From: Cytobacillus oceanisediminis
GTDB lineage: Bacteria; Bacillota; Bacilli; Bacillales; Cytobacillaceae
Reading direction: 5' to 3'
NCBI RefSeq assembly: GCF_022811925.1
Contig: NZ_CP065511.1
Coordinates: forward strand, 1,295,501 to 1,359,500
Length of the DNA stretch: 64,000 nucleotides
In this document: piece after piece, positions 19,673 through 38,565 of the stretch
How the letters are laid out: the number at the start of each line of letters is the position of its first letter
How positions within the stretch are numbered: the stretch's first letter is position 1
Position numbers and translations under genes: made by a program
Notes under the pieces: model-generated
Database searches by the model: none
Told to the model about the DNA's origin: nothing
Seen by the model: the letters and a program-made list of their open reading frames with translations, nothing else

Positions 19673-19735
19673 GTAGAAATACTTTAAATTTATGTAACGA
19701 TTCTGAAAGTTTTGCGTTTTCTTTTTTCCTATACT
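19673..19735 (+). promoter_or_regulatory. Promoter A of the ureide island: two 21-bp-spaced boxes plus -10
   Basis: GTAGAAATAC starts at 19673 and GTAACGATTC at 19694, exactly 21 bases apart. TATACT (19730-19735) starts 36 bases after the second box. There is no good -35, as expected for an activated promoter. The same layout recurs before 22876, 25930 and 36967. It drives the two amidohydrolase genes at 19765 and 21270. Confidence 0.55.
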
Positions 19736-19764
19736 TAAAGTTAAAAGAAGTGAGGGAGAAGGAA

Positions 19765-21273
19765 ATGATTGATTTACTCCTGATTCATGGAACTGTCATT
19801 ACTATGGATCAAAACAGGCGCATCATCACCGATGGAGCTGTTGCCATAAATGGAAGCAGGATCCTGGATGTGGATATGAGTGAAAAACTATTGGAAAAAT
19901 ATGAGGCGAAAGAAGTGATAGATTGCAGCCATCATTGTATCCTGCCTGGATTAATAGATGTACATGGACATGGCGGACATTCGATGTTTAAGACAATTGC
20001 AATGGAAAGCATTGATTTTTGGATGCCTATTATGACGAATACGTATAAGCACTTTGTAACAGATGAATTCTGGTATTTTGAAGGAAAGCTTTCTGCACTT
20101 GAGCGTCTGAAGGCGGGCATAACAACAGGTGTATCTGTTCTTGGCTCAATGCCAAGGTCGGATGATCCGGTTTTTGCCATCAATCATGCAAAAGCCTATG
20201 CAGAAACTGGTGTCAGGGAGGTTGTTTGCACCGGTCCCTGCAACCCGCCATGGCCTCATTCATTCAGCAGGTGGATAGACGGTCAAAGAATTACTAAAGA
20301 AGTCACCTACGAGGAAGTGTTAAATGGTGCAGAAGCAGTGATTGAAGCTTTAAATCATGCCAACCAAGATCGGACAAGAGCATTTATTACCCCATTCGTA
20401 ATCGTTACATCAGTTGAACCATCTGGCCCAACTTCACCTGCCAAACTTCATCATTTAACAGAACATGATTTATACCAAGCAAAGAAAGTCAGAGAAATTG
20501 CCAGAAAATATAATACAAGAATCCACTCTGATGCTTTTGGAGGCATGATTCACTTAGCAGTAAAGGATTGGGAGAATGCTCTTTTAGGTCCTGATGTTCA
20601 TCTTCAGCATTGCCGGGGGATATCCTTTGATGAAGCGAAAATATTAGCTGAAACCGGAACAAATGTCAGTGCCTCCCCTGGATTCTCTCAAATTCATGCC
20701 CGCACACCGATGATAGAATTGATCGAGCTGGGAACAACAGTTGCTATATCAACAGATGGCACTTCACCATCAACAAGCTTTGACATGTTTCAAGCGATGA
20801 GAAAAACACAATTTATTCATCAGGCAGCACATAGAGATGAATATTGCTTACCTGCTGGTAAACTTCTGGAAATGGTTACGATTGATGCTGCAAAATGTAT
20901 TGGATGGGATGATGAATTGGGCTCTCTTGAAGCGGGGAAAAAGGCGGATGTTATAACTGTCAACATGCATCAGCCGCACTTAACACCTGAGTTTATGCAT
21001 ATTCATCGGCTTGTCCATCAAGCTTATGCAACTGATGTGGGGCATGTTATCGTAGATGGCAGGGTCCTTATGAAAGACAGAGCAGTCTGCTCCGTTGATG
21101 AAAGGTCAGTTTTGGCAGAAGCAAATGAAGAAGCTAACTCAACAATTAAGCGTGCTGGTCTTGAAAGATACATGAAGCAAACGAAATATTTTTGGGGTCA
21201 CAAACGAACCTATGGAGATGGAATGGATCATAACGAAGAAGAAGCTGTTGGGGAGAAGGGGGACAATCAATGA
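19765..21273 (+). CDS. Amidohydrolase, ATZ/TRZ-like
   Basis: A 502-residue metal-dependent amidohydrolase, probably cytoplasmic, acting on a C-N bond of a nitrogen heterocycle or ureide. It has the N-terminal beta-sandwich start LLIHGTVITMD, the metal motif LPGLIDVHGHGGHSMF, a second histidine in RIHSDAFGG, a third in LQHCRGISFDEAK and the catalytic Asp in TVAISTDGTSPS, then a C-terminal LEAGKKADVITVN strand. These match the ATZ/TRZ-type amidohydrolase layout. I start at ATG 19765, preceded by GGAGAAGG; a GTG lies 15 bases upstream. It overlaps the next amidohydrolase by four bases (ATGA). The substrate is not evident. Confidence 0.85.
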   Translation: MIDLLLIHGTVITMDQNRRIITDGAVAINGSRILDVDMSEKLLEKYEAKEVIDCSHHCILPGLIDVHGHGGHSMFKTIAMESIDFWMPIMTNTYKHFVTDEFWYFEGKLSALERLKAGITTGVSVLGSMPRSDDPVFAINHAKAYAETGVREVVCTGPCNPPWPHSFSRWIDGQRITKEVTYEEVLNGAEAVIEALNHANQDRTRAFITPFVIVTSVEPSGPTSPAKLHHLTEHDLYQAKKVREIARKYNTRIHSDAFGGMIHLAVKDWENALLGPDVHLQHCRGISFDEAKILAETGTNVSASPGFSQIHARTPMIELIELGTTVAISTDGTSPSTSFDMFQAMRKTQFIHQAAHRDEYCLPAGKLLEMVTIDAAKCIGWDDELGSLEAGKKADVITVNMHQPHLTPEFMHIHRLVHQAYATDVGHVIVDGRVLMKDRAVCSVDERSVLAEANEEANSTIKRAGLERYMKQTKYFWGHKRTYGDGMDHNEEEAVGEKGDNQ

Positions 21274-22748
21274 AGACCAGGATAAAGGGAAAATATGTAA
21301 TTGGATACGATGGAGAAGATCATGTCCTGATAGAAAATGCTGAAGTTGTATTTGAAAATGAAACAATCATTTATGTTGGAAAAAGCTATTCGGGCCAAAC
21401 TGATAAAGTTATAGATGCCGGCAGCGCTTTAATCAGTCCGGGATTCATTGACTTGAATGCACTAGGCGATATTGATCATGATATCTTGCATTTGGAGGCC
21501 AGTTCAGCAAGACAGAAAAATCTGCTTTGGTCAGAGAGGTATGTTAAGCAAGGACACCATGAAATTATGACGGCTGAAGAAGAGGCCTTTAAATCTTTAT
21601 ATGCCTATTCACAGCTGATCCTTCATGGAATTACAACTGCTATGCCAATCACTTCTGTGCATTATAAAAAATGGGCAGAAACATATGAGGAGCTTGCTTC
21701 AGCAGCGAGGCATGCTGCTGACCTGGGACTGCGTATATACCTGGGTCCAAGCTATCAATCGGGGATAAGAGTCGTTCAGGCTGATGGCAATATAAAGATT
21801 TATTGGGATGAAGAAGCTGGAAGGCAAGGATTAGAAAGAGCTGTGCGCTTTTTGGAAGAGTTTGATGGTTCATTTAATGGTTTGGTCAGGGGAATGCTTG
21901 CGCCTGAGCGGATTGAAAGTCAAACGGAAGAAAGCCTTCTCCGGACAAAGCAATATAGTGATCATTATAAAGTTCCGATAAAATTGCATGCAGCCCAAGG
22001 TGATTTTGAATATCATACAATGATTGAGAAATATGGCGTAACGCCAATTAGGCATTTATATAATCTTGGATTTTTAGGATCCAGAACGGCGATTCCTCAT
22101 GCCCATTTTATTGCTGGATACAGTGAGGCAAAAACAGGTGGTGGAGATGATTTGTCTTTGCTGAGGGAAACGTGCACAACTGTCATTCATTGCCCTTTAA
22201 TAATTGGAAGGCATGGGCAGGCAATGGAATCCTTTGCAAAATATAAGCAGTCAGGAATTAATTTAGCGTTAGGAACAGATACGTTTCCTCCGGATATGTT
22301 CCAGAATATCAGAACAGGGAGCATGCTTTCCCGGATCGTAAATAAAGAAGTTAAAGACTCAGCATACTCAGATCTTTACCGTGCTGCTACATTAGGTGCA
22401 GCGAAGTTTCTGGGAAGAGAAGACTTGGGCCGTCTTGCAGCAGGTGCAAAAGCAGATATTATTGCAATTGATTTAGACGGATTCCATATGGGAGTTTTAG
22501 ATGATCCCCTAAGAACAGTGATGGTAAGCGGAACGGGAAGAGATGTAAAGTTATCCATTATCAATGGGAAAGTAGTCATGAAAGACCGAAAATTACCCAA
22601 CCTTGATTTAGAGGAATTGAAAGGAAAAGCGCATGAATATTTTATGAAAATGAAAAAAGGTTATTTAAAAAGAGATTATCAAGAGCTTCCTGAGAATGAA
22701 TTGCTGCCGCCTTCTTTTAGATTTGTTGATTCTATTGATCAGCAATGA
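21270..22748 (+). CDS. Atypical amidohydrolase lacking the usual HxH metal motif
   Basis: A 492-residue amidohydrolase-superfamily protein. The position that normally reads GFIDLHTH here reads PGFIDLNALGDIDHD, so the first metal-binding histidine pair is missing. Later landmarks are kept: IKLHAAQGDFEY, TAIPHAHFIAGYSE, VIHCPLIIGRHG and the Asp in NLALGTDTFPPDM, and the LAAGAKADIIAIDLD strand. I recall proteobacterial 'chlorohydrolase family' proteins with a similar DxLxDxD motif, so this looks like a subfamily rather than a damaged gene. It is translationally coupled to the preceding amidohydrolase. A T12 run follows its stop without a clear stem. Confidence 0.8.
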   Translation: MKTRIKGKYVIGYDGEDHVLIENAEVVFENETIIYVGKSYSGQTDKVIDAGSALISPGFIDLNALGDIDHDILHLEASSARQKNLLWSERYVKQGHHEIMTAEEEAFKSLYAYSQLILHGITTAMPITSVHYKKWAETYEELASAARHAADLGLRIYLGPSYQSGIRVVQADGNIKIYWDEEAGRQGLERAVRFLEEFDGSFNGLVRGMLAPERIESQTEESLLRTKQYSDHYKVPIKLHAAQGDFEYHTMIEKYGVTPIRHLYNLGFLGSRTAIPHAHFIAGYSEAKTGGGDDLSLLRETCTTVIHCPLIIGRHGQAMESFAKYKQSGINLALGTDTFPPDMFQNIRTGSMLSRIVNKEVKDSAYSDLYRAATLGAAKFLGREDLGRLAAGAKADIIAIDLDGFHMGVLDDPLRTVMVSGTGRDVKLSIINGKVVMKDRKLPNLDLEELKGKAHEYFMKMKKGYLKRDYQELPENELLPPSFRFVDSIDQQ

Positions 22749-22771
22749 CGTTTTTTTTTTTTGAATAAGTA

Positions 22772-22835
22772 GTAGAAAAAGTTTAAAAACATGTAAAGAA
22801 AGTAGAAAAAAATTAATCAGAATATTTTATATAAT
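22772..22835 (+). promoter_or_regulatory. Promoter B of the ureide island
   Basis: GTAGAAAAAG at 22772 and GTAAAGAAAG at 22793, 21 bases apart, then TATAAT (22830-22835) 37 bases after the second box. It precedes the solute-binding protein gene at 22876. Confidence 0.55.
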
Positions 22836-22875
22836 TAGACAAAGGCTTTAGGGCTGAAAAAAGGGGGGATTGTAT

Positions 22876-24441
22876 TTGAAAGTGAAAAAAAGAATGGGGT
22901 TAGTGATCTTAGCTCTGCTGATCGCAATTCTTATTTCAGGATGTTCGACTAAAAATGAGGTTAACAGCAGTCAGGACTCCAAGGGAATAGCATCCGAAAA
23001 CGGCGGAACTTTAGTTATAGCCCGTTTATCTGACGCAGAAAATTTAGATCATCATTTTATGTCGACGATCAATGCTGCCAGCGTTACACATAATAAAATT
23101 TATGAGGGGCTTGTTGGTCGGGATAAAAATGCCGAAATCAAGCCGGTGCTGGCTGAAAAGTGGGAACAGTTAGATGAAACAACTTGGGAGTTCAAGCTTA
23201 GAGAGGATGTAACATTCCATGACGGGACTGCATTTAATGCCGATGCCGTGAAAGCAACATTTGACCGGTTATTAGATCCGGATGTTGCCTCCCCAAGAGC
23301 TGTTGTATTCAAAATGGTAGAAGAAGTAAAGGCAGTTGATGAATTTACTGTCCAATTTAAATTATCAGAACCGTTTTCACCCTTACTATCCATATTGGCC
23401 AATCATGAAGGCGGCATTATCTCACCAAAAACAATCGAGAAATATGGAAATAAAGTGATTCAAGAACCTGTTGGGACAGGTCCATTTGTATTTGAGTCCT
23501 GGACACCAGGCAAAGAAATTGTTTTTAACAGAAATGAAACGTATTGGGGGACTCAATCTAAGCTGGATAAAGTAATATTTAAGATCGTCCCTGAAGAAAC
23601 AACAAGGATATCCATGCTTGAAACAGGCGAAGCCCACATAGCCGAACCGCTCTCGGTCACAATGATGGAAACGGTGGAAAACTCCAAAAATGCAGAAATT
23701 TACCGCAGTGAAGGATTTGGCACAGAATATATTGGGTTCAACGTTGAAAAGGAGCCATTCGATGATGCCAGAGTCCGAAAAGCGGTTGGACATGCAATTG
23801 AAATGGATTCTATCCTGGAAGGGGTATTTGAGAATGTCGGGAAAAAGTCCAACTCACTGCTGGGGCCAAAGGTATTTGGATATCATGAAAGCTTAGAAGC
23901 ATATGAATATAATCTCAATGAGGCAAAAAGGCTTCTGGCCGAAGCAGGCTACCCAAATGGTTTTGAAACAACATTGAAAACAATGGATAAGAAAGAATGG
24001 ATCAATATGGCAGAAGTTCTTCAGTCTCAGCTGAAAGGGATAGGAATCAAACTGGACATTCAGGTATATGAATATGGGACATTTGTTGAACAAGTAAACC
24101 GCGGTGACTCTGAAATGTTTATTTTAAGCTGGAGAAATGCCACGGGAGATGCTGATTATAATCAATATAACCTTTTCCATAGCAGTTCACACGGAGCTGC
24201 TGGCAATACCTTCTTTTACAGCAATAAAGAGGTGGACAGCTTAATAGAAGCTGCACGGGCTGAAAAAGATTCGGATAAGCGGATTGAATTCTATGCAAAA
24301 GCTCAGGAAATCGAAATGAAAGAATCCGTATATATACCTGTTCGTGTAATTGAGAATATGGCAGCCGTTTCTAAAGATGTAAAAGGCTTCTCTATTACTC
24401 CTTCTGGATATTTGGATATCAATGACATTTCAATTAAATAA
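22876..24441 (+). CDS. ABC transporter solute-binding lipoprotein (family 5, DppE/OppA-like)
   Basis: Extracellular solute-binding protein of the peptide/nickel/opine family 5. It has an N-terminal signal with lipobox LISGC, then family motifs TTWEFKLREDVTFHDGTAFN and VKATFDRLLDP, and the late QYNLFHSSSHGAAGN. It should deliver its ligand to the Opp-type permease encoded on the opposite strand at 32802-36681, because no permease lies next to it. It is clearly paralogous to the product of 36967-38544. I prefer TTG 22876 (GGGGGG seven bases upstream); TTG 22870 in the same frame is possible. A hairpin follows before the downstream amidohydrolase gene. Confidence 0.88.
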   Translation: MKVKKRMGLVILALLIAILISGCSTKNEVNSSQDSKGIASENGGTLVIARLSDAENLDHHFMSTINAASVTHNKIYEGLVGRDKNAEIKPVLAEKWEQLDETTWEFKLREDVTFHDGTAFNADAVKATFDRLLDPDVASPRAVVFKMVEEVKAVDEFTVQFKLSEPFSPLLSILANHEGGIISPKTIEKYGNKVIQEPVGTGPFVFESWTPGKEIVFNRNETYWGTQSKLDKVIFKIVPEETTRISMLETGEAHIAEPLSVTMMETVENSKNAEIYRSEGFGTEYIGFNVEKEPFDDARVRKAVGHAIEMDSILEGVFENVGKKSNSLLGPKVFGYHESLEAYEYNLNEAKRLLAEAGYPNGFETTLKTMDKKEWINMAEVLQSQLKGIGIKLDIQVYEYGTFVEQVNRGDSEMFILSWRNATGDADYNQYNLFHSSSHGAAGNTFFYSNKEVDSLIEAARAEKDSDKRIEFYAKAQEIEMKESVYIPVRVIENMAAVSKDVKGFSITPSGYLDINDISIK

Positions 24442-24448
24442 ACGCTCT

Positions 24449-24490
24449 AAGATAAGAGGGATATCCATTCTGGGTACCCTTTTATCTTGT
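24449..24490 (+). terminator. Intercistronic hairpin between binding protein and amidohydrolase
   Basis: AAGATAAGAGGG / CCCTTTTATCTT stem with one mismatch and no strong T-tail. It probably reduces read-through or stabilises the upstream mRNA, giving more binding protein than enzyme. Confidence 0.6.
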
Positions 24491-24514
24491 CTGGGGCCGG
24501 AAAGGTGAATGAAA

Positions 24515-25747
24515 ATGAATAATAGCTATTGGCTAAAGAATGTGCGTTTGGAATGCGGATACAAGAATGAGAATAATAGAGTGTCAGGTACTATAACAGA
24601 TCGATTTCATTTATTAATAGAAGACGGCTGCATTGCAAAGATCACGAAGGACTTAGAGGCTTCCACTGATGATCTGCCCATAAAAGATGCAAAGGGACTG
24701 CTGTTGTTGCCATCCTTTGTCGAAAAGCATGTCCATCTTGATAAAACTTATATGGGGGATAAATGGAGAGCCTGCATCCCTGCATTGGGTGTCATAGAAC
24801 GGTGTGAAATTGAAAAAAATGCATTATTATCCATGCCTTCAAGTACTTATCAGCGATCAAAAGCATTGCTTAAGCAGTTAATATCATATGGTTCAACCCA
24901 TATTAGAACTCATGTGGATATCTACCCTGAAGTCCAATTACAGAATCTAGCTGAAGTTCAGCAGACATTGGAGGAGTTTTCAAACTATGCCAGCTCAGAA
25001 ATCGTTGCCTTTGCCCAGCATGGCTTGCTGCGCTCAGGGACACCTCAGCTTATTAGAGAAGCTATTAGAAATGGTGCAGGAATTGTAGGTGCGGTCGATC
25101 CTGCTACCGTTGACAACAATATTGAAGCCTCGCTTGTTCAATTGATGGATTTAGCTGTAGAAGGGGATGCAGATATTGATTTGCATTTACATGATCCTGG
25201 CCACCTTGGTACTTTTACAATGAAAAGGCTGGCCTTTCTGACTAAAGAAGCTGGCTGGGAAGGAAGAGTTGCAATTAGCCATGCATTTTGCCTTGGTGAT
25301 GTTTCAAGGGAAGAAGTCTCTGAAATGGCAGAGATTTTAAAAGACGCACGTATTTCGATCGTTACTAGCCTCCCGACAGGCCGTGCGACACCACCTGTTA
25401 ATCTGTTAAGTGAGTGTGGAGTAGAGGTTGCAGTTGGAAACGATAATATTTTTGATTCATGGTGGCCAACAGGTAATGGCGATATCCTGGAAAGAGCAGG
25501 CCGCTTAATTGAACGATATCGATGGACGGATGAAAAGTCTCTTTCCCAAACATTTAAATATATTACAGGGGGTAAGACGCCACTGGATCAAGAGGGAAAT
25601 CAGATCTGGCCTATCGCTGGAGATGAAGCCAGCATGATCCTTGTCGATGCAAGCTGTTCAGCAGAGGCCATGGCAAGAAGAGCGGAGCGCTGTGCAGTGT
25701 TCTACAAGGGGAAATTAGTTTACGAAAAAAAGCATGAATCAGTGTGA
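24515..25747 (+). CDS. Cytosine deaminase-like amidohydrolase, paralogue 1
   Basis: A 410-residue amidohydrolase of the CodA/cytosine deaminase-like branch. Motifs: metal pair in FVEKHVHLDKTY, STHIRTHVDIYPE, EIVAFAQHGLLRSG, metal ligand in DIDLHLHDPGHLG, AISHAFCLGD and the catalytic Asp in VAVGNDNIFDSWWPTGNGD. In Escherichia coli CodA the segment HCDE holds His214 and Glu217; here it reads HLHD, so the general-acid Glu is replaced by Asp. A different ring amide or imine substrate is likely. I start at ATG 24515, as AAAGGTGA is ideally spaced there rather than for ATG 24509. Two paralogues lie at 38627 and 39892. Confidence 0.85.
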   Translation: MNNSYWLKNVRLECGYKNENNRVSGTITDRFHLLIEDGCIAKITKDLEASTDDLPIKDAKGLLLLPSFVEKHVHLDKTYMGDKWRACIPALGVIERCEIEKNALLSMPSSTYQRSKALLKQLISYGSTHIRTHVDIYPEVQLQNLAEVQQTLEEFSNYASSEIVAFAQHGLLRSGTPQLIREAIRNGAGIVGAVDPATVDNNIEASLVQLMDLAVEGDADIDLHLHDPGHLGTFTMKRLAFLTKEAGWEGRVAISHAFCLGDVSREEVSEMAEILKDARISIVTSLPTGRATPPVNLLSECGVEVAVGNDNIFDSWWPTGNGDILERAGRLIERYRWTDEKSLSQTFKYITGGKTPLDQEGNQIWPIAGDEASMILVDASCSAEAMARRAERCAVFYKGKLVYEKKHESV

Positions 25748-25788
25748 TTTGATCAGTCTCTGGTTTATTTTTTCTAAAAAATTAAGAA

Positions 25789-25851
25789 GTAAAGAAAACT
25801 AAAAAATTGGTAAAGGAATCCGAAAAAAATAGTTAGATTTTTTTATACAAT
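25789..25851 (+). promoter_or_regulatory. Promoter C of the ureide island
   Basis: GTAAAGAAAA at 25789 and GTAAAGGAAT at 25810, 21 bases apart, then TACAAT (25846-25851) 36 bases after the second box. It drives allB, allC, allE and the cupin gene. Confidence 0.55.
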
Positions 25852-25929
25852 TTAATAAATCAGTTATGAGGTTCCTCAAAATACAGGATAAGGATTACAT
25901 GGATGATTAAAAGTAGAGGGAGAAATGCG

Positions 25930-27321
25930 ATGATATATGATTTGATTATAAAGGGCGGCAATGTGGTTCTTAAAGACGAGGTAATAAAGAATGATATCGC
26001 AATTATAAATGGAAAAATTGCAGCGATTGAGGAAACTATTGACCATGAAGCTGAGCAGATCATCGATGCATCTTCGCAATATGTTATGCCTGGAATGATT
26101 GATACTCATGTGCATATTTGTGAGCCAGGCCGAACAGAGTGGGAAGGGTTTATAACTGGAACTAAAGCACTGGCAGCAGGAGGAACTACATGTTATGTGG
26201 ATATGCCCTTGAACGCCCTTCCGGCTACGATAGACAAGAACACACTGCAATTAAAGGCAGAAGCAGCCAAGGGGAAGAATTATATCGATTATGCATTTTA
26301 TGGCGGACTTGTTCCAGGCAATATTGAAAGGCTTGAAGAGCTATCAGATGAAGGAGTTATCGCATATAAATGCTTTATGTCCACTTGTGGAACGGATAAC
26401 CCCGATGATTTTTCTAATGTGGATGATTATACCCTTTATGCGGGGATGAAAAGGATTGCTAAACTAGGCCAAATTTTATCGATTCATGCGGAAAATGCCC
26501 AAATTACTGATCGTTTAGGCGAAGAGTTAATGGCACAGGGCAGGACAGCTGCCGCAGATTATGTCCTTTCACGGCCAGTATTTACAGAGGTTGAAGCAGT
26601 GAAACGCGCTCTTTATCTTGGAAAAGAAACGAAATGCCCTATTCATTTTGTGCACATTAGCAGCGCAGAAGCAGTAGAAGAAATTATTAATGCCCGAATC
26701 CAGGGTCAGGATGTGTCCCTTGAATCATGTCCCCATTATTTTATGCTTACATCTGAACAGATTGAGAAGATTGGGCCGGCTGCCAAATGTTCTCCTCCAC
26801 TGCGAACTATTGAAGAACAAGAAAAGCTTTGGGACAAGTTAATAGAAGGCAAGATTGATATGTTAACGTCAGATCACTCACCATGCCCGCCTGAAATGAA
26901 GCATAGTTCTTCAAATAATTTTTTCGAAGTGTGGGGAGGAATCACAGGGTGTCAAAATAACGTTGATTTAATGTTTGATGAAGCGGTTTTGAAAAGAAAT
27001 CTGCCAATAGCTCATTTTGCAAGGATGATTTCTTCTAATCCGGCTAAGCGATTTAATATTCCTAATAAAGGAGAATTAGCTGTTTCATTGGATGCAGATA
27101 TCATCTTAGTTGATGCCAATCGTTCTTATGTTGTTGAGGAGGAAGGACTATATTATCGGCATAAGCATAGCCCATACATTGGGAGGGTGATTAATTGCCG
27201 GGTAACCAAAACCCTCGTTCGCGGCAAGGTTGTATATGATTTGGATCAGGGGATTGTTGGGAAACCTCTCGGAAAAGCCTTAAAGTTAAAAAATGGAACC
27301 GAAACTTTGAATTTGATCTGA
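25930..27321 (+). CDS. allB: Allantoinase
   Basis: Cyclic amidohydrolase opening the hydantoin ring of allantoin to allantoate. The product of 463 residues has the metal motif PGMIDTHVHICEPGRTEWEG, the carboxylated-lysine strand VIAYKCFMSTCG, a histidine in LSIHAEN, HFVHISSAEAVE, the SLESCPHYFMLT strand and the catalytic Asp in MLTSDHSPCPPEMK. This last motif (DHSPCPPEMK) is typical for allantoinases rather than dihydropyrimidinases. I start at ATG 25930, with GAGGGAGA upstream. It heads a unit followed by allC, allE and a cupin gene. Confidence 0.92.
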   Translation: MIYDLIIKGGNVVLKDEVIKNDIAIINGKIAAIEETIDHEAEQIIDASSQYVMPGMIDTHVHICEPGRTEWEGFITGTKALAAGGTTCYVDMPLNALPATIDKNTLQLKAEAAKGKNYIDYAFYGGLVPGNIERLEELSDEGVIAYKCFMSTCGTDNPDDFSNVDDYTLYAGMKRIAKLGQILSIHAENAQITDRLGEELMAQGRTAAADYVLSRPVFTEVEAVKRALYLGKETKCPIHFVHISSAEAVEEIINARIQGQDVSLESCPHYFMLTSEQIEKIGPAAKCSPPLRTIEEQEKLWDKLIEGKIDMLTSDHSPCPPEMKHSSSNNFFEVWGGITGCQNNVDLMFDEAVLKRNLPIAHFARMISSNPAKRFNIPNKGELAVSLDADIILVDANRSYVVEEEGLYYRHKHSPYIGRVINCRVTKTLVRGKVVYDLDQGIVGKPLGKALKLKNGTETLNLI

Positions 27322-27375
27322 AATCAAAAAGAAGGAATTCAATGTCCGCAGAAAGTTTAGATAGGGGAATTCGGG

Positions 27376-28638: not shown

Positions 28639-28663
28639 TAGCAATGAAAAGGGGAGTTTATGA

Positions 28664-29428
28664 ATGGGCTATCCAAAAGATTTATTATCAAGCAGGTCTG
28701 TAATAGAACATGGGAAGTATGCCTTAATCGCACCTGAAGGATTAGTGAACAATGTTATTCCTGGGTTTCATAATTGCATTATTTCTATCTTAGGTTCTCC
28801 TAAGCTTGGGGCAAGCTTTGTCGACTATTATGTGACAGTGAAAAAAGGAGGAGGAAATTTAGAAGGTTTTTGCGGCCAGCAGGATATACAGACTTTTGTT
28901 TACATACTAGAGGGAAAAATAAAGGCTTCTGCAGACGAGAAAGAATTTATCTTGGAGGAAAGCGGATACCTTTATTGTCCGCCGGGAATGAAATTGTATC
29001 TGGAAAATATGGGTGATGGGGACTCTAAGCTCTTTTTATACAAGCAGAAATATCGCCCTCTTGAAGGGCGAAAACCCTGGGTTATATCAGGACATGCAAA
29101 TAGAATTGAATTTAGAAACTACGATGATATGCACAATGTAAACATTAAAGATCTATTGCCTGCTGATTTGGATTTTGATATGAATTTCCATATCCTTTCA
29201 TTCGATCCTGCTGCGAGCCACCCGTTTATTGAAACACATGTTCAAGAACACGGAGCATATATCCTTTCCGGGGAAGGAATGTATAATCTCGATAATAAGT
29301 GGATTCCAGTCAAAAAAGGGGATTATATATTTATGGGCCCTTATGTACACCAGGCTGCGTATGCTGTGGGGAGAGAGAATTTAACATATGTCTACTCCAA
29401 GGATTGCAATAGGGATGCGGAATTATAA
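28664..29428 (+). CDS. allE: (S)-ureidoglycine aminohydrolase (bicupin)
   Basis: A 254-residue bicupin like YlbA/AllE, which releases ammonia from ureidoglycine to give ureidoglycolate. The N-terminal cupin (about 40-120) includes QQDIQTFVYILEGKIKA and YLYCPPGMKLYLEN. The C-terminal cupin holds the Mn ligands in HPFIETHVQEHGAYIL (Glu, His, His/Gln pattern) and GPYVHQAAYA. GGGGAG precedes the start; an overlapping ATG four bases upstream is out of frame. It continues the allB-allC pathway. No ureidoglycolate dehydrogenase or lyase follows. Confidence 0.9.
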   Translation: MGYPKDLLSSRSVIEHGKYALIAPEGLVNNVIPGFHNCIISILGSPKLGASFVDYYVTVKKGGGNLEGFCGQQDIQTFVYILEGKIKASADEKEFILEESGYLYCPPGMKLYLENMGDGDSKLFLYKQKYRPLEGRKPWVISGHANRIEFRNYDDMHNVNIKDLLPADLDFDMNFHILSFDPAASHPFIETHVQEHGAYILSGEGMYNLDNKWIPVKKGDYIFMGPYVHQAAYAVGRENLTYVYSKDCNRDAEL

Positions 29429-29454
29429 AAAATAAAATTTTTAGGAGAGGAGAA

Positions 29455-29829
29455 ATGACAGTGTCAAACATTCAGCAGATTATGGAGGAAAGAATCTTTG
29501 AAATCGATAAAATTGCAAAGTTTGATCCTGATAAGCCGCAAAAGAATTACTTTTATGAAACAGATAAAACGGTAGGAGCTGTTTGGTGTCTGGAACCAGG
29601 ACAGGAGGTATACTTGCATTCTCACTCAAATGTAGATGATATGTGGGTTTGTATTGAGGGAACAGGAACCTACTTTCCTGACTTGGAGAATGAAATTCAA
29701 ATAGGAAAAGGCATGGTGATCCTTGCTAAGCCTAACCAAATTCATGGAATGCGGAATACAGGGAAGGATAGGTTTTTATTTGTTGGTTTTGCTGCAGGTT
29801 CTTTGCCAATGGATATAACAAGATATTAA
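29455..29829 (+). CDS. Single-domain cupin protein
   Basis: A 124-residue cupin with the metal-binding pattern YLHSHSNVDDMWVCIEGTG and the second histidine in KPNQIHGMRNTG. The N-terminal 35 residues precede the barrel. It has an excellent AGGAGAGGAG ribosome binding site. As the last gene of the allB-allC-allE unit it may act on a ureide intermediate, for example as an isomerase or auxiliary hydrolase, but this is inference from position only. Confidence 0.8.
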   Translation: MTVSNIQQIMEERIFEIDKIAKFDPDKPQKNYFYETDKTVGAVWCLEPGQEVYLHSHSNVDDMWVCIEGTGTYFPDLENEIQIGKGMVILAKPNQIHGMRNTGKDRFLFVGFAAGSLPMDITRY

Positions 29830-29855
29830 CTTGCAGGCTGCAGACTTATAAAAAG

Positions 29856-29895: not shown

Positions 29896-29938
29896 TAAAT
29901 TTTAAACACAATTATATACACAATAAAGCAGCACCCGG

Positions 29939-31252
29939 CTAAACTTTCACAGTAAGCTTCGTTCTTAATAGATTATAAATGAAATAACCTAAGCAAAGAA
30001 AGCTAGATAGGGAAAAGCTGATCCAAATCGTAAGAAGATTTTCCATAATAGGCAAAGCTGCAAAGCCCCCGGCAGTCCCAATAACAGATGCAAGGGGAAT
30101 AAGAGCAGGCAAGGTTTTACTGCCGAGTATAATATACAGCATTGGAACGATCATGGAAGCATAAATATTACCGAAAAAAAACAGCAGTTCAATAGGGGAT
30201 GGAGGCAAAATACTTACGATAAAAAGCAATAATAAACATATAGCTCCGGAAAAAAGATATGTGAATCTCCATTTTTCTTTATTGTTAAGGGGGCGGAGCA
30301 TACCGACAATATTTTTAATTATTAATGAGACAATTGCATGTAATTCTGCACTAATTGCAGATGAAATGGCACTAAAGCAAAACAAGACAAATAAGACAAT
30401 AAGCAAAGTTGAATTGATTTTTCCAATAAGCTCAAATAACAAGGAATAAATGGAATCATAGCTTCTTCCAAAAATAATAATCATGATCAAAGACGATAAT
30501 GCAAGAGGAATAGTCGCCCATATTAAACCTGCTAACGTAAAAGTCATGCGCAGTTTTTCTTTTTTTATAATAAAAACTCTTTGCCATGTGGCGCGATCAA
30601 TGATCACTTGTCCAAATCCAATTAAAATTGCTGTTAAAATAAACCAAATAGCTTCCATATTTTTAACATAAAGTATGTATGGATGATATAATTTAATTCC
30701 TTCATAAACAGGATATACACCTTCCTGGATATAAAAGTAAACAGGGATAATGATGACTGCACTGAATATAAGCACGACGTTGATGCCTGCGAGCTGATGG
30801 ATTCTATGTATGCCCCCTGCTCCCCCAATAAAAAAACAAAACAATAAAAAGAAAACCATTCCAGAAAAAACAGGCAGAGGAAAAATCATGTGCAGAAGGA
30901 TTCCTGCACCCATAGCCTGAACAAATATAGAATGGAAACTTATCACGAGAAGAATAGAAATCATGAACCAGTAACCAAGTGGAGTCAATCTTTGGCGCAA
31001 GACATCACCTATTGTTTGCTGGTCATGAAACCGATCTCGAATCTTTTTTGCTAATATTCCAAATAAAATTAGTGCAAGAGCACCCATAAGGGAATAGCCG
31101 ATCCCTCCGGTTAGCCCATACTTAATTATTGTTTCTGGCGATGAGAGAATGGTATTGCCTGTTACCCATCTGGACAAAAGGCTAACAACACCAAAACCGA
31201 TTCCCAGCTGAAAAGCTCCGCCAATATAGTATTGAAAATCGGTTTTCTTCAT
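29939..31252 (-). CDS. SSS-like (sodium:solute symporter) membrane protein
   Basis: A 437-residue integral membrane protein with about 12-13 hydrophobic segments. It resembles sodium:solute symporters: GGAFQLGIGFGVVSLLSRWV at the start, and the mid-protein segment IDRATWQRVFIIKKEKLRMT followed by WATIPLAL, a layout typical of the family. It is shorter than most SSS members (about 500 residues). Its start overlaps the response-regulator stop (ATGA), so it is made with the two-component system. It could import a ureide or act as the input sensor for the kinase, which lacks its own sensor domain. Substrate unknown. Confidence 0.7.
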   Translation of the reverse strand: MKKTDFQYYIGGAFQLGIGFGVVSLLSRWVTGNTILSSPETIIKYGLTGGIGYSLMGALALILFGILAKKIRDRFHDQQTIGDVLRQRLTPLGYWFMISILLVISFHSIFVQAMGAGILLHMIFPLPVFSGMVFFLLFCFFIGGAGGIHRIHQLAGINVVLIFSAVIIIPVYFYIQEGVYPVYEGIKLYHPYILYVKNMEAIWFILTAILIGFGQVIIDRATWQRVFIIKKEKLRMTFTLAGLIWATIPLALSSLIMIIIFGRSYDSIYSLLFELIGKINSTLLIVLFVLFCFSAISSAISAELHAIVSLIIKNIVGMLRPLNNKEKWRFTYLFSGAICLLLLFIVSILPPSPIELLFFFGNIYASMIVPMLYIILGSKTLPALIPLASVIGTAGGFAALPIMENLLTIWISFSLSSFLCLGYFIYNLLRTKLTVKV

Positions 31253-31941
31253 TGTGAAGTCTCCTTCAAGCGGTAATCCCTGGGTGATTGGCCTGTCATT
31301 TTCCGGAATATTTGGCTGAAATAGTGCTGGCTGTTAAAACCGCACTTCTCCGAAATCGTACTAATGCTTAAATCAGGATTCTCAATCAGCATTTTTTGTG
31401 CCTGCTTTAACCGAAAGTCGTTTAAGTATTCCGAAAAGCCCATTCCTACTTCTTCGTGAAATTTCCTGCTCAGATAGGCTGAATTAATATGAATTTTTGA
31501 TGCTAAATAACTTAAAGTAAGTTTTTCATTGTATTCCTTTTGAATAATTTGCAAAGCCTTTACAATTTGCTCAGAGTAACTGCTAATTCGTTCATACCTT
31601 CCCAAAACGCTCATTAACTCTTCTTCAATAACGGGCTTTGTAATGTAATCTATCACTCCAAGCCGGAGTGACGTTTGGATATAATCAAAGTTTTGATAAG
31701 CTGTAACCATGATTAAATCAATATCACCAGCAGAGGAAAGCTCCATAGCTAAATCTAATCCCGATTTGCCTGGGAGCTGAATATCAAGGAAAGCGAGAAA
31801 GATGTCATGCTTCTTAATAATTTGAAGAGCCTGAGAGGCATCCTGAGCCTTAAAAAGAATCCAATTAGGGAATTTCTTTTTAATGAGATATTCCAATTGT
31901 TCCAATTCTATAAGTTCATCATCTACAAGCAAGATATTCAT
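31249..31941 (-). CDS. AraC-type response regulator (YesN-like)
   Basis: A 230-residue regulator with an N-terminal receiver domain and a C-terminal AraC HTH. The receiver has acidic residues in LLVDDELIELEQL, the phospho-acceptor Asp in LAFLDIQLPGKSGLD (about residue 53), a Thr in MVTAYQNFDYI and the Lys in YITKPV. The DNA-binding part shows YLASKIHINSAYLSRKFHEE and ISEKCGFNSQHYFSQIFRKM. AraC-type activators usually contact two major grooves two helical turns apart. That matches the 21-bp direct repeats found at four promoters in this island, and this protein is the best candidate to bind them. It overlaps both neighbours by ATGA. Confidence 0.9.
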   Translation of the reverse strand: MNILLVDDELIELEQLEYLIKKKFPNWILFKAQDASQALQIIKKHDIFLAFLDIQLPGKSGLDLAMELSSAGDIDLIMVTAYQNFDYIQTSLRLGVIDYITKPVIEEELMSVLGRYERISSYSEQIVKALQIIQKEYNEKLTLSYLASKIHINSAYLSRKFHEEVGMGFSEYLNDFRLKQAQKMLIENPDLSISTISEKCGFNSQHYFSQIFRKMTGQSPRDYRLKETSQ

Positions 31942-32708
31942 TGCATACTTTCTCCTTCCAATTTTTCTGACATAATAACGTGGGGAAATATAGCCAAAAC
32001 AGCTGTTCCATCCTCCTGATCTGTTAATTGAACTGAAGTTTCATCATCGGGGAATAATAGTTCAAGTCTTCGTTTTATATTCTCAAGCCCCAGCCCTCCA
32101 TCCGGGGGACTTGTTTCATAGTTCTCTAAAGAATTGTTCCACACAGAAACATGAATCGCTGATTCGATCTTTATTATTTTTATTTTTAATAAGGCCTCGC
32201 CAATATGTCTTTCAAAGGCATGCTTGAAAGCATTTTCAACAAGAGTTTGTATTAAAAAGGGAATAATAATGGCTTTATTCACACAGTTGTCCAAATGGAT
32301 TTCGTAATGAAGACGGTCTCTAAATCTGGTTTTTTGTATCTCCAAATAATAATTTACATAAGTAAGCTCATCTTCAATCGAAATAAAATTATTTATGGTT
32401 CGATATTTAAATTTTAGCAGCTTTGAAAGGGTTTCAATGGAACGTATTAATTCGGTTTTACGGTCCAGCCTGGCTAGAGCCAGGATTGAATTTAAGGTAT
32501 TAAAAAAGAAATGAGGCTGAATCTCCTGGTTTAATTGATTGTATAAAGCTGTTTGAAGTTCCCTTTCTAACGCTATTTCACGTTTTTGCTTCTCAAGTAA
32601 ATCAATTCTTTTTTCAAAAACAAATAAAAATAGCAAGGTAAAGGCTCCCGCCAGCGGAACCAGAACGCAAAACATAATATAAATGGAGAATGATTCAATA
32701 GGCAGCAT
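31938..32708 (-). CDS. Sensor histidine kinase, LytS/YesM type, without an extracellular domain
   Basis: A 256-residue kinase with one N-terminal membrane segment (IMFCVLVPLAGAFTLLFLFV), a short coiled coil and the His-kinase domain NQEIQPHFFFNTLNSILALA, where His in IQPHF is the phosphorylated residue. The ATPase part has LIQTLVENAFKHAF (N box) and PPDGGLGLENIKRRL (G box). No periplasmic loop or PAS/GAF module is seen, so the input must come from the membrane or a partner such as the coupled SSS transporter. The AAGGAGA ribosome binding site precedes the ATG. A terminator separates it from the opp genes upstream. Confidence 0.88.
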   Translation of the reverse strand: MLPIESFSIYIMFCVLVPLAGAFTLLFLFVFEKRIDLLEKQKREIALERELQTALYNQLNQEIQPHFFFNTLNSILALARLDRKTELIRSIETLSKLLKFKYRTINNFISIEDELTYVNYYLEIQKTRFRDRLHYEIHLDNCVNKAIIIPFLIQTLVENAFKHAFERHIGEALLKIKIIKIESAIHVSVWNNSLENYETSPPDGGLGLENIKRRLELLFPDDETSVQLTDQEDGTAVLAIFPHVIMSEKLEGESMQ

Positions 32709-32730
32709 GGGATTCGTTTCTCCTTAAGTA

Positions 32731-32768
32731 TTAAAAAAGGGAGGTATAAGAACCTATCCCTTTTTTAA
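32731..32768 (-). terminator. Terminator between the opp-like operon and the kinase gene
   Basis: TTAAAAAAGGGA / TCCCTTTTTTAA 12-base arms. On the reverse strand it follows the last ATPase gene and lies before the kinase ribosome binding site, so it separates the two units or lets only part of transcription through. Confidence 0.8.
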
Positions 32769-32801
32769 TATAACATTTTATACAAAATAGAGGTATTTGT
32801 A

Positions 32802-33797
32802 TTAAACTGGCAGAGTATCAGCAATATGGCAGCTTACAAAATGATTATTAACTAGCTCCCTTAGGGGGGGTTCTTCTTGTTTGCATTTTTCTACAGCAAA
32901 AGGACAGCGTGTATGGAACCTGCAGCCTCCAGGAGGATCAATCGGTGATGGAACATCTCCTTTTAATATGACGCGGTCTCTTTTTAAAGTTGGATCCGGA
33001 ACTGGAATAGAAGATAGCAGCGCTTTTGTATACGGGTGGAGCGGAGAATCAAACATTTTTTTTTTCTCAGCGATTTCGACTACTTTCCCTAGATACATCA
33101 CCATAACCCGATCTGAAATATGCCTGACGACACTAAGGTCATGAGAGATAAAAAGAAAGGTCAGTTTAAACTGTTTTTGCAGCTTCTTTAATAGATTGAG
33201 AATTTGCGCCTGGATTGATACATCCAGAGCAGATACAGCTTCATCGCAAATGATTAATTTGGGATTAACGGCCAATGCTCTGGCAATCCCAATACGCTGG
33301 CGCTGGCCGCCGCTAAATTCATGCGGGTATCTTTCAAGCGCTTCTGGAGGAAGTCCAACATAACCAAGCAGTTCGAGCATTCTTTCCTTTCGTTTTGATT
33401 TTTCAACCACATTCTGAATGGCCATTGCTTCATTCAAAATTTGCTTCACCGTTTGCCTGGGGTTAAGAGAGGCAAAAGGATCCTGAAAAATAACCTGCAA
33501 ATCACCCCTAAGTTTTCTCATATCCTTTTTATTTAACGTTAAAATATCTTTCCCCATATAAAGAACCTTTCCATCAGTAGGTTCATCAAGCCTTAAAATT
33601 GCACGTCCGGTAGTTGATTTGCCGCATCCGGACTCTCCAACTATACTTAATGTCTCCCCTTCAAAAAGCTGAAATGAAATATCGTCTACCGCTTTTACAT
33701 ATGCCTTTGGCTTGAAAATAGAATCTTTTTTAACCGGGAAGTATTGTTTTAAATTGTCTACTTGTAAGATGATATTTTTTTCTGCTGTCGTTTCCAT
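32802..33797 (-). CDS. Oligopeptide-type ABC transporter ATPase (OppF/DppF-like)
   Basis: A 331-residue ATPase of the peptide/nickel uptake family. Walker A is [10 protein letters not shown]-loop VIFQDPFASLNPRQT, signature FSGGQRQRIGIARALA, Walker B IICDEAVSALD and switch His in FLFISHDLSVV. The C-terminal oligopeptide domain holds the Fe-S-type cysteine pattern PPGGCRFHTRCPFAVEKC. I start at ATG 33797; a TTG nine bases upstream lacks spacing for the ribosome binding site. It overlaps the OppD-like stop. Partner of the OppD-like ATPase and two permeases, it energises uptake of the ligand bound by the two lipoproteins of this island. Confidence 0.93.
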   Translation of the reverse strand: METTAEKNIILQVDNLKQYFPVKKDSIFKPKAYVKAVDDISFQLFEGETLSIVGESGCGKSTTGRAILRLDEPTDGKVLYMGKDILTLNKKDMRKLRGDLQVIFQDPFASLNPRQTVKQILNEAMAIQNVVEKSKRKERMLELLGYVGLPPEALERYPHEFSGGQRQRIGIARALAVNPKLIICDEAVSALDVSIQAQILNLLKKLQKQFKLTFLFISHDLSVVRHISDRVMVMYLGKVVEIAEKKKMFDSPLHPYTKALLSSIPVPDPTLKRDRVILKGDVPSPIDPPGGCRFHTRCPFAVEKCKQEEPPLRELVNNHFVSCHIADTLPV

Positions 33798-33798
33798 G

Positions 33799-34815
33799 CT
33801 AGACAACCCCTTCTTTATCTCTTTTGCCAGTCCACTTGTCTGTATATTTCCAGCATCTTACCTTAACATCGTCAGAATGGGAAAAAAGGTCAGGCTGATG
33901 TGTGGCGCATATATCTTCCGCGTAAGGGCATCTAGAGGCAAACCGGCATCCAGCAGGCATATTGTAAGGGCTGGGGACACTGCCATCTATCGTAATTAAC
34001 TCATCCTGATCTTCATGGATTTTAGGTAATGAGTTCAAAAGCCCTTGGGTATAAGGATGCTTGGGTTCGGCAAAGATTTGCTCTGTAGAAGCATGCTCGA
34101 CTATATTTCCGGCATACATAACAGCAACCTTATCACATGTTTCTGCCACAACTCCCAAATCGTGGGTAATCATGATAACACCCATTCCTATCTTTGTTTG
34201 CAGGTCTTTAATCAGCTCCAGTATTTGCGCTTGAATTGTAACATCCAGGGCGGTCGTTGGTTCATCTGCAATTAATACCTCTGGTGTACATGCAAGAGCC
34301 ATAGCAATCATGACACGCTGGCGCATCCCGCCGCTCAACTGGAATGGCTCTTGCTTCGCTCTTTTTTCAGGAGACGGGATACCTACAAGCTTAAGCATTT
34401 CAACTGACTTATCCCACGCAGCTTTCTTTCCCATCTTTTGGTGTAGCCTTAAAGCTTCTGCAATTTGCTCTCCAACTGGGATTACAGGATTTAAGGAAGT
34501 CATAGGCTCCTGAAAAATCATTGATATTTCATTCCCGCGAATTTTCCTCATTTCATCCTCTGACATTGTTACTAAATCTTTTCCTTTAAAATAAACGGAA
34601 CCCCCAGCAATTTTTCCAGGAGGAGAAGGAATAAGACGGAGAATGGAGAGGGAAGTCATACTTTTCCCGCATCCGGATTCCCCTACAATTCCCAGCGTTT
34701 CCCCTTTATGCACAGTAAAATCGATGCCATCAACCGCTTTACTGACTCCCCGCTTTGTTGTGAAATGTGTTTTTAAACCTTTTACTTCCAGTATTGGTTT
34801 GTTTCTTTCTTTCAC
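33799..34815 (-). CDS. Oligopeptide-type ABC transporter ATPase (OppD/DppD-like)
   Basis: A 338-residue ATPase with Walker [11 protein letters not shown]-loop [15 protein letters not shown], signature [16 protein letters not shown], Walker [13 protein letters not shown] and His in [11 protein letters not shown]. The C-terminal domain has the cysteine cluster [17 protein letters not shown]. It pairs with the OppF-like ATPase. GTG start at 34815 after GGTGGTGA. It lies 20 bases after the OppB-like permease and is part of the same reverse-strand operon. Confidence 0.93.
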
Positions 34816-34835
34816 AGCCAGTCACCACCCTTAAC

Positions 34836-35756
34836 TTAATTTAGCTCAATGCGTTTATTGAAGAACCGATAAAAGACATCTACGAATAAATTCACAACTA
34901 CGAAAATAAGTGAGGCAAATAATACTCCTCCCTGGACCATTGGCAAATCACGCATTCTTATCGCATCAACAATCATTCTTCCGAGGCCATTAATAGCAAA
35001 GATGGATTCAACCAATACTGTACCGCCAAGGAGTGCGCCAAACTGAAGTCCCACAACCGTAATCACTGGGATCAGTGCATTTCTTAATGCATGTTTAGAA
35101 ATTATGATTCGTTCGCGAAGCCCTTTTGCACGTGCTGTTCGAATATAATCCTGGCGAATAACTTCCAGCATACTCGACCTGGTCATCCTTGCGACAATTG
35201 CTGCACCGCCTGCTCCAAGAGTAACAGCTGGCAAGATGACATGGAGCAGACTGTCCCATCCGGCAACTGGTAAAATTTGAAGCTTAACAGAGAAGAAATA
35301 CATAAGCATGAGGCCAAACCAGAAGCTTGGCAGTGAAATTCCTAAGAGCGCGACAAGCATGACGCTGACATCGGTCAATGAATAAGGTTTAACAGCTGAA
35401 ATAATTCCTGCTGCCATCCCCAGCACGATTGTAATAATGATGCTAAAGAAGGCAAGTTCAATGGTAATTGGCAGTCTTACCAATATTTCATCAAGAACAG
35501 GCTGGCTGTTTTTTAAGGAAACACCTAAATCACCCTTAAACACATTTGTTAAATATTCAAAGTACTGGATATATAAAGGCTGGTTTAATCCAAGCTGTTC
35601 ACGAATAGCTTCAATTGTTTCTTTTGAGGCGCCTTCACCTGCAAGAAGTACTGCAGGATCCCCTGGAACGAGCTGCATAATGAAGAAGACAACAAAAGTA
35701 ACTCCAATAATAACCGGGATTGTTTGTAAAATCCGGCGTAATATAAACATCAGCAT
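34836..35756 (-). CDS. Peptide-type ABC transporter permease (OppB/DppB-like)
   Basis: A 306-residue inner-membrane permease with about six transmembrane segments. It starts MLMFILRRILQTIPVIIGVT, the common OppB/DppB/GsiC beginning, and has the N-terminal QLVPGDPAVLLAGEGAS segment and the cytoplasmic ATPase-contact loop ARTARAKGL-like (YIRTARAKGLRERIIISKHA). It pairs with the OppC-like permease to form the channel. GAGGAGG precedes the ATG, 23 bases after the OppC-like gene. Confidence 0.93.
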   Translation of the reverse strand: MLMFILRRILQTIPVIIGVTFVVFFIMQLVPGDPAVLLAGEGASKETIEAIREQLGLNQPLYIQYFEYLTNVFKGDLGVSLKNSQPVLDEILVRLPITIELAFFSIIITIVLGMAAGIISAVKPYSLTDVSVMLVALLGISLPSFWFGLMLMYFFSVKLQILPVAGWDSLLHVILPAVTLGAGGAAIVARMTRSSMLEVIRQDYIRTARAKGLRERIIISKHALRNALIPVITVVGLQFGALLGGTVLVESIFAINGLGRMIVDAIRMRDLPMVQGGVLFASLIFVVVNLFVDVFYRFFNKRIELN

Positions 35757-35778
35757 AGATGTAACCTCCTCAAAGCTT

Positions 35779-36681
35779 TTATTTTTTCATCCTAGGGTCA
35801 AAAGCATCACGCAAACCATCCCCAAAAATATTAAACCCAAGGACGAGAATGGAAATAGCGAGACCAGGAAATAGGGCAATATACGGTGCTGAGAATAAGA
35901 AATCTCGTCCGCTGCTAAGCATAGTCCCCCATTCAGGTGAAGGGGGCTGTGCACCAAGGCCAAGGAATGATAATCCTGCAGCTGATAGAATGGCAGTAGC
36001 CAATCGCAAAGTCCCTTGAACAATAATGGGTGAAAGTATGTTTGGAAAAATATGCTTGAAAATAATGACTAAATCATTGGCGCCAAGCGAGCGTATTGCA
36101 TCAATATATTCAAGGCGCTTTACTTCTAAAGTAGATCCGCGGACAATTCTGGCAAATAAAGGTACAGAAAAAGCTCCTACTGCTATGGTCACATTAATCA
36201 GACTTGGACCCAGTGCTGCAATAATGGCTAGGGCAAGAAGAATCCCTGGGAATGCAAGCATAACATCCATCATCCTCATGATAATGGTGTCAACCCATTT
36301 GCCATAATACCCAGCTGCAAGACCAAAAATAATTCCGAAAAATGCTCCGAATAACACAGCGGCAAATCCAACCCCCATTGATAGCCTTGAACCATAAAGA
36401 ATCCGGCTTAAAATATCTCTTCCTTTATCATCTGTTCCCATCCAATGGTCTGCAGATGGAGGAGTCAGCTTATTTTCCAAATCAATTTCGTATGGGCTAT
36501 ATGGAGCCAGCAGCGGTGCAAATACCGCCATTAATAGATAAACAATAATAATGATGGCCCCAACTAAAGCAGCTTTATTTTGTATCAATATAGAAAGAAA
36601 ATCTTTTATTCTAGATTCCTCTGGGCCAATAAATGTCCTCTGAGCAATTTTAGGCTGCTCCGTTTTTACTTGAACTGTCAT
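35779..36681 (-). CDS. Peptide-type ABC transporter permease (OppC/DppC-like)
   Basis: A 300-residue permease, first gene of the reverse-strand transporter operon. It has the N-terminal membrane segment AALVGAIIIIVYLLMAVFAP, the OppC motif HWMGTDDKGRDILSRILYGS, and the ATPase-contact loop EYIDAIRSLGANDLVIIFKH. About six transmembrane segments. GGGGGG precedes the ATG. No solute-binding protein gene is in this operon; the two candidates are on the other strand at 22876 and 36967, the latter divergent from this gene across a 285-base intergenic region. Confidence 0.93.
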   Translation of the reverse strand: MTVQVKTEQPKIAQRTFIGPEESRIKDFLSILIQNKAALVGAIIIIVYLLMAVFAPLLAPYSPYEIDLENKLTPPSADHWMGTDDKGRDILSRILYGSRLSMGVGFAAVLFGAFFGIIFGLAAGYYGKWVDTIIMRMMDVMLAFPGILLALAIIAALGPSLINVTIAVGAFSVPLFARIVRGSTLEVKRLEYIDAIRSLGANDLVIIFKHIFPNILSPIIVQGTLRLATAILSAAGLSFLGLGAQPPSPEWGTMLSSGRDFLFSAPYIALFPGLAISILVLGFNIFGDGLRDAFDPRMKK

Positions 36682-36827
36682 CTTATTTCCCCCCTAAAGA
36701 TTTTGTAGTAGTACCTGAAATTAAAAGTCAGTCTTCCTCCTTTCAAAAGAAGAATGGTATAAAAACGAATGATGTTTAGTTAAAACTATCAAAATTACCT
36801 GTAAAGTAAATATTTTTTAAAACAGTT

Positions 36828-36890
36828 GTCAAAATATTTAAAAATCAAGTAAATATTCTGTAAATATCTAAATGCATCATCTTCTATAAT
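36828..36890 (+). promoter_or_regulatory. Promoter D of the ureide island
   Basis: GTCAAAATAT at 36828 and GTAAATATTC at 36849, 21 bases apart, then a perfect TATAAT (36885-36890) 36 bases after the second box. It lies between the divergent OppC-like gene and the second binding-protein gene and reads toward the latter. I do not see an equally clear pair toward the opp side. Confidence 0.55.
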
Positions 36891-38544: not shown

Positions 38545-38565
38545 ATAGAAATTAAAAAGTGAAAC

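Follow-up and report, generated by a model that had tools for sequence, protein, structure and literature searches.

What signal do four separate transcription units of one catabolic island share, and which protein reads it? The question is raised by a stretch of 64,000 nucleotides from Cytobacillus oceanisediminis (contig NZ_CP065511.1, positions 1,295,501 to 1,359,500), analysed as a whole and henceforth called the window. There, four plus-strand units encoding binding proteins, amidohydrolases and enzymes of ureide breakdown begin alike, with a pair of boxes in direct orientation followed by a -10 element. The island also encodes a trio formed of a histidine kinase, an AraC-type response regulator and an SLC5-like membrane protein. 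In what follows we argue that the four promoters belong to a single AraC-type regulon, and that the response regulator of the trio very probably binds the boxes and activates transcription.

The initial annotation had given twelve start positions (box 1, box 2 and -10 of each site) together with the letters of the boxes. All of them are correct in the window, and the distances from box 1 to box 2 and from box 2 to the -10 are as claimed: 21/36, 21/37, 21/36 and 21/36 (Table 1). The existence of a common architecture at four promoters is thereby confirmed, with a tandem direct repeat at 21 bp, typical of AraC/XylS operators, at each of them. It had further been stated that the island encodes a response regulator with an AraC-type DNA-binding domain; this is so, as the protein matches PF12833 at residues 146-224.

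How far could such a pattern arise by chance? Written as GT[AC][AG]A[AG]-N15-GTAA, the box pair has four matches on both strands of the window, exactly the four sites, when 0.52 would be expected from shuffled sequence (standard deviation 0.76); none of 100 shuffles reached four. The 5.58-Mb genome has 86 matches, about one per window length, against 398 for the same pattern read backward, so that two such boxes are not in themselves unusual there. The rare feature is the presence of four pairs within one island, each preceding a -10. Because the pattern was fitted post hoc, once the sites were known, we give more weight to held-out tests. When matrices were built with one promoter left out, each omitted site came at rank 3 or 4 of 127,918 positions, with a score of 26-38. 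Position 19652, which precedes site 1 by the length of a box, scored 14.7-17.9, and the others among the positions listed at most 14.8. Single promoter classes predict less well, since matrices trained on one of them place the remaining three sites only at ranks 2 to 83.

Two broader models were then scanned against the genome. Model R1, made of 27 sites with the four of the window included, gives these four E-values from 1.8e-12 to 3.1e-8, the next match being at 0.049. Model R2 comprises 24 sites from other genera (records assigned to the genus of the window by their title or by the kinship column were removed) and no allB promoter. This held-out model ranks the four sites 1-4 in 5.58 Mb, with E-values of 8.3e-10, 1.6e-8, 2.8e-7 and 3.7e-4, and 0.032 for the next; the weakest of them is the allB site, of a class that the training set did not contain. 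With both models there is a gap in E-values after the fourth match: the element stands at separate units of related function and nearly nowhere else in the genome.

The composition of the boxes emerges from a tabulation of 40 sites, chosen among all those found and selected for the 21-bp distance, of which they are therefore no test. Both boxes are bipartite: GTAAAnAT is followed, some ten positions further, by TgnAAAA. These would be two blocks of contacts, separated by one turn of the helix, such as a domain with two helix-turn-helices should need. The distance from box 2 to the -10 is 36 bp in 34 of the 40 sites and 37 bp in six (the SBP1-amh3 site of the window among them), and the -10 reads TATAAT in 33. 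A clear sigma-70 -35 was sought at the same sites and not found: the best match to TTGACA has three of six letters, none having four or more when about 17% should. A weak -35 with the proximal half-site over or adjoining its position is, again, a trait of AraC/XylS-type operators.

Is the element retained in relatives? Orthologous islands were collected with the SLC5-like gene as query, which makes the presence of that gene a matter of selection. The kinase and the regulator adjoin it in 26 of the 27 mapped loci; L043 does not extend to it. Two loci were left out of the counts of sites: L048, which overlaps L035, and L041, in which several genes (oppD, oppF, allC and the SLC5-like gene of that island copy) are in pieces. 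Loss of the box pair would have spoken for chance resemblance; the pair is in fact kept, according to both regular expression and alignment. With the regular expression, 18 of 19 main-clade islands and none of five distant-clade ones have a site upstream of SBP2. The corresponding figures are 15 of 18 rows for SBP1 (among the misses, a row of L042 is without upstream sequence), nine of ten for allB, and five of the six rows with upstream sequence for amh1, three more rows having none. The site follows the first gene of the unit: L038, whose available stretch does not contain amh1, has it upstream of amh2, and L032, with allB abutting amh3, has no allB site. One SBP copy of L035, missed by the regular expression, directly follows another island gene; the other SBP1 copy of L035 and the amh1 of L047 are misses without explanation. 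In the distant clade the regulator is 42-44% identical, the 21/36 geometry is kept in five of five loci, and box 2 begins with GACA, not GTAA.

The distribution of the element across genomes bears on who reads it. Among 61 relatives, 17 have a close ortholog of the SLC5-like protein; an R1 site at E <= 1e-3 is found in all of these as against one of the 44 others, and close regulator orthologs are present in exactly those 17. In 397 genomes of the order (site at E <= 1e-4, SLC5 ortholog at E <= 1e-60) the figures are 31/31 and 1/366. Both scans used stricter filters, which drop weak matches. In the latter exception, G256, the site (E 8.6e-5, near the cut-off) comes after a trio of paralogs, with 34% identity for the kinase, 39% for the regulator and 20% for the SLC5-like gene, and before two genes named by reading as acetamidase/formamidase-like and amino-acid permease; this order is that of L160 (1480-6633). 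Another exception, G022, carries a relic of the island, with the operator and amh4-amh5 kept and the SBP gene truncated near its start (L107, 10733-13532). All sites at a distance from the island greater than about 15 kb (G002, G028, G058, G314) were inspected, as were those of the ortholog-less G022 and G256. Three of the four off-island sites of island-bearing genomes have members of the island's gene families after them. In G002 this is a paralog of SBP, in G028 a decayed amidohydrolase with amh1-amh2-SBP behind it, and in G058 an amh4-amh5-amh3 run. The fourth (G314) precedes a symporter fragment and then a deaminase-like gene, named by reading and without match to island proteins; the corresponding arrangement in L149 (2617-4032) is on a contig other than that of the island of its genome. 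Off-island sites are more telling than linked ones. As for 20 further matches chosen for annotation, ten precede SBP1-type genes, six amh4, two amh2 and two other genes (L149, L160).

A number of points weigh against the idea of a single regulon read by the regulator of the trio. The sites of the models were chosen with a regular expression that presupposes the boxes, and at least five of the 31 island-bearing genomes (G000, G010, G046, G058, G233) supplied sites to R1. Genomes and sites are related, hence the counts are not independent events, and linkage accounts for part of the co-occurrence, most sites being inside the island beside the trio. The SBP2 site of L045 fails the regular expression and is weak by R1 (E 1.7e-4). 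The distant-clade pattern was written after three of the five loci, and matches of the model in further ones, had been seen; R1 misses the sites of that clade at E <= 1e-3, the best being 0.0037 in L053. The boxes are better conserved than their surroundings, with 0.81/0.90 in the SBP2 stack (10 loci) when the upstream part has 0.61 and the part from box 2 to the -10 has 0.49, and with 0.75/0.71 versus 0.29 and 0.53 in the SBP1 stack (7 loci); these stacks are ungapped, however, and their anchoring on box 1 depresses identity farther off. Finally, the regulator belongs to a large family, with 21-95 first-look candidates per genome, any of them a possible binder, and G022 has its site and no regulator ortholog at E <= 1e-30, nor any SLC5 match at E <= 1e-3.

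The last case would suit a scenario in which the boxes are bound by a transcription factor from outside the island, the trio regulating something else. We deem this unlikely, though worth keeping in mind: the site tracks the trio throughout the 397 genomes, even the lone exception there adjoins a paralogous trio, and in a scan of 20 window proteins a recognised DNA-binding domain turned up in the response regulator alone (the unmapped genes of other islands lie outside that scan). A familiar outside factor would be CodY, which is general in these bacteria and has AATTTTCWGAAAATT as its box consensus. Box 2 would then be a CodY site and the boxes a CodY operator, and site 4 does have AATATTCTGTAAATA at 36852, with three mismatches. 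It is the only one of the four to match at three mismatches or fewer; the window has 10 such matches when 11.55 are expected by chance, and CodY was rejected as the binder on this count. That the element is not general, unlike CodY, and that neither box 1 nor the constant 21-bp repeat would be accounted for, makes this origin scarcely credible.

Could the resemblance reflect no more than AT-rich upstream sequence, an ordinary promoter being surrounded by A-tracts or UP elements? The regions are indeed AT-rich, the boxes contain A-tracts, and a genome-wide count does not make the bare pair any rarer than the control pattern read backward. Against this stand the flanking columns, which diverge more than the boxes in the stacks anchored on box 1, the full models, for which the rest of the 5.58 Mb has no comparable match, and the fact that the element follows the trio across genomes. 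The R1 and R2 scans and the distribution in 397 genomes led us to reject this explanation, which we hold to be as improbable as CodY. A subtler alternative keeps the response regulator on the boxes and makes it a repressor or a dual regulator. A protein sitting on box 2, at the -35 position, could block polymerase, and a third box in the divergent opp/SBP2 region could give different effects on the two operons. The lack of a usable -35 in the 40 tabulated sites rather suggests the need for an activator, and Caldicellulosiruptor regulators of AraC type with tandem sites are read as activators (PMC8579813); we see repression or dual control as quite improbable. The AraC-type regulon proposed at the outset, with the conserved geometry, the co-occurrence with the trio, the related gene families that most sites elsewhere precede, the missing -35 and half-sites like those of XylS and MekR in its favour, comes out strongly supported by the comparison of genomes.

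Table 1. Features of the island, with positions counted from the first letter of the window
Feature	Position	Strand	Remark
amh1-amh2 operator box 1	19673..19689	+	sequence GTAGAAATACTTTAAAT
amh1-amh2 operator box 2	19694..19710	+	sequence GTAACGATTCTGAAAGT
amh1-amh2 promoter -10 TATACT	19730..19735	+	36 bp from box 2 start
SBP1-amh3 operator box 1	22772..22788	+	
SBP1-amh3 operator box 2	22793..22809	+	
SBP1-amh3 promoter -10 TATAAT	22830..22835	+	37 bp from box 2 start
allB-allC-uglA-cupin operator box 1	25789..25805	+	detected with the allB promoter class left out of the model
allB operator box 2	25810..25826	+	
allB promoter -10 TACAAT	25846..25851	+	36 bp from box 2 start
SBP2-amh4-amh5 operator box 1	36828..36844	+	
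SBP2 operator box 2	36849..36865	+	
SBP2 promoter -10 TATAAT	36885..36890	+	36 bp from box 2 start
AraC-type response regulator (REC + HTH_18; PF00072, PF12833)	31249..31941	-	proposed binder of the boxes
Histidine kinase, PF06580	31938..32708	-	short hydrophobic N-terminus, by reading
SLC5/SSF-like membrane protein	29939..31252	-	the trio's third member; candidate for the signal input
amh1-amh2 unit (amidohydrolases)	19750..22748	+	downstream of site 1
SBP1-amh3 unit (SBP_bac_5 protein, amidohydrolase PRK06846)	22870..25747	+	downstream of site 2
allB-allC-uglA-cupin unit (allantoinase, allantoate deiminase, ureidoglycine aminohydrolase, cupin)	25903..29829	+	downstream of site 3
SBP2-amh4-amh5 unit	36967..41115	+	downstream of site 4; start by reading
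oppC-oppB-oppD-oppF transporter operon	32802..36681	-	divergent from SBP2
Intrinsic-terminator-like hairpin	32733..32766	-	between oppF and the kinase gene; by reading, no terminator program
Third box, GTAAAT start	36806..36822	+	GTAAATATTTTTTAAAA; opp/SBP2 intergenic region; absent from the initial annotation
Candidate opp -10	36785..36790	-	GATAGT here, mostly GATAAT in relatives; within the TTATCAAAA block

How would the regulator act? Each 17-bp box would be the site of one monomer, GTAAAnAT being offered to one helix-turn-helix and TgnAAAA, about ten bp on, to the other. Two monomers would then lie head to tail, spaced by 21 bp. The proximal one, on box 2 (approximately -48 to -32), would cover the position of the missing -35 and recruit RNA polymerase to a good -10, which amounts to class II activation. 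Upstream of this step, a cue reaching the trio would cause the regulator to be phosphorylated, and the phosphorylated form would turn on the binding-protein and amidohydrolase genes, possibly with opp via the third box. As read from the alignment, the receiver aspartate of the regulator is conserved across the main clade, and its helix-turn-helix region strongly so (helices were assigned by reading).

The other two members of the trio are the kinase and the SLC5-like protein. In scans against Pfam and NCBIfam the kinase has no separate sensor domain and no STAC domain: PF06580 alone is above threshold, with sub-threshold matches to one Pfam family (ArlX) and two NCBIfam models. The SLC5-like protein of the window, too divergent, has no Pfam or NCBIfam match; PF00474 is matched by five of 19 aligned relatives, and some relatives in databases are named symporters. 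Its model (pLDDT 81.5) finds its best PDB matches in DUR3 and SGLT2, with TM about 0.75-0.80 by query length, and the predicted fold is nearest that of the plant DUR3 urea transporters; taken together, these results make the membrane protein one of SLC5 type. It is a candidate for the source of the signal. The reading frames of the three genes overlap on the minus strand. In 24 loci, the regular expression found no box-type promoter in the 400 bases ahead of the kinase gene, the regulator gene or the SLC5 gene. The hairpin that precedes the trio leaves about 24 nt before the start codon of the kinase, and similar ones are visible by eye in several of seven relatives; the arrangement suggests that the trio may owe its expression to read-through from opp.

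This brings us to the region between opp and SBP2. Because it holds three boxes, opp may be a further member of the regulon via the third one. It precedes SBP2 box 1 by exactly 22 bp in all 19 SBP2 promoters counted, a count that leaves out L045 and the five distant-clade loci. In the same 19 promoters a TTATCAAAA block, 41-42 bp upstream, is conserved alongside. Within it, GATAGT is a candidate for the -10 of the divergent opp operon, and the third box overlies the -35 position of this candidate promoter. The intergenic alignment has 24 rows, 14 of which were inspected, with L041, L048 and L050 left out. By eye, it displays no third box in the distant clade, nor a convincing tandem pair on the minus strand for opp: only the plus-strand third box and the candidate -10 are there. 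On the other side of this region, the longest SBP2 reading frame begins at an ATG at 36889, overlapping the -10; the start is likely to be about 36967, after a ribosome-binding site. Directly 3' of amh5 stands a gene for an ankyrin-repeat protein (41162-41782), a relative of which also adjoins amh5 in L048.

The functional label first given to these genes was that of a ureide island. What stands is a probable single regulon of binding-protein and amidohydrolase units (amh and SBP are short names coined in this analysis); its core does not seem to be specific for ureides. Among the islands mapped, over stretches of about 20 kb, allB-allC-uglA-cupin is confined to the closer ones, and the others keep the operator on family-5 binding proteins and amidohydrolases. 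As the ureide genes are found only in the closer mapped islands, the signal of the trio need not be a ureide. The consequences are of practical interest. A two-component system gains a predicted operator and a list of targets in relatives from 11 of the 135 genera sampled. Binding proteins and amidohydrolases with no known substrate become tied to one signal, so that the inducer of a single promoter would indicate the substrate of the pathway. One may speculate further, and here we are tentative, leaning slightly towards doubt, that the trio is an unfused transceptor: the state of the transporter-like protein would drive a kinase devoid of sensor, and such trios would share a promoter code inherited from an ancestor, with tandem boxes at 21 bp and the -10 at 36 bp, that persisted while substrates, targets and box letters changed, as in G256 and in the distant clade. 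Were the SLC5-like protein indeed the input, we would have a stand-alone transporter signalling via a minimal kinase.

Several known systems come close to parts of this picture. Members of the SLC5/STAC family of kinases, CbrA, CrbS and RpuS, tie an SLC5 module to a histidine kinase and a regulator of nutrient use, according to the passages seen (PMC7096432, PMC9100948). In them SLC5 is fused to the kinase via STAC, whereas the SLC5-like protein of the island is encoded by a separate gene, beside a short kinase and an AraC-type regulator. The idea of an unfused transceptor is tempered by the fact that the SLC5 part of CbrA is reported as not required for signal transduction (PMC7096432). Closer to the regulator itself, three of five AraC-type two-component regulators of Caldicellulosiruptor have tandem-repeat sites upstream of promoter elements, their cognate sites being described as tandem repeats with large spacers (PMC8579813), and the effector domain of XydR, from the XydS/R system of Clostridium cellulolyticum, binds upstream of two target genes (PMC3572039). 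These systems resemble ours in having an AraC-type response regulator near its targets. They differ in that these targets concern sugars or polysaccharides, and the passages seen mention neither a fixed 21/36 geometry nor an SLC5-like third gene. A description of this regulon or of its operator was not found in the open-access literature. For the operator, the best likeness is with XylS at Pm and MekR at PmekA. In the published formulas, the half-sites are TGCA-N6-GGNTA-N6 and CACC-N5-CTTCAA-N6, respectively, each bipartite and in direct tandem, and the period summed from them is 21 bp for both (22 for MtlR; PMC4514859). XylS and MekR are one-component regulators, whereas that of the island joins its DNA-binding domain to a receiver, and the letters of the boxes differ (GTAAAnAT...TgnAAAA). 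The kind of operator is thus already known, and this regulon appears to be a new member of it.

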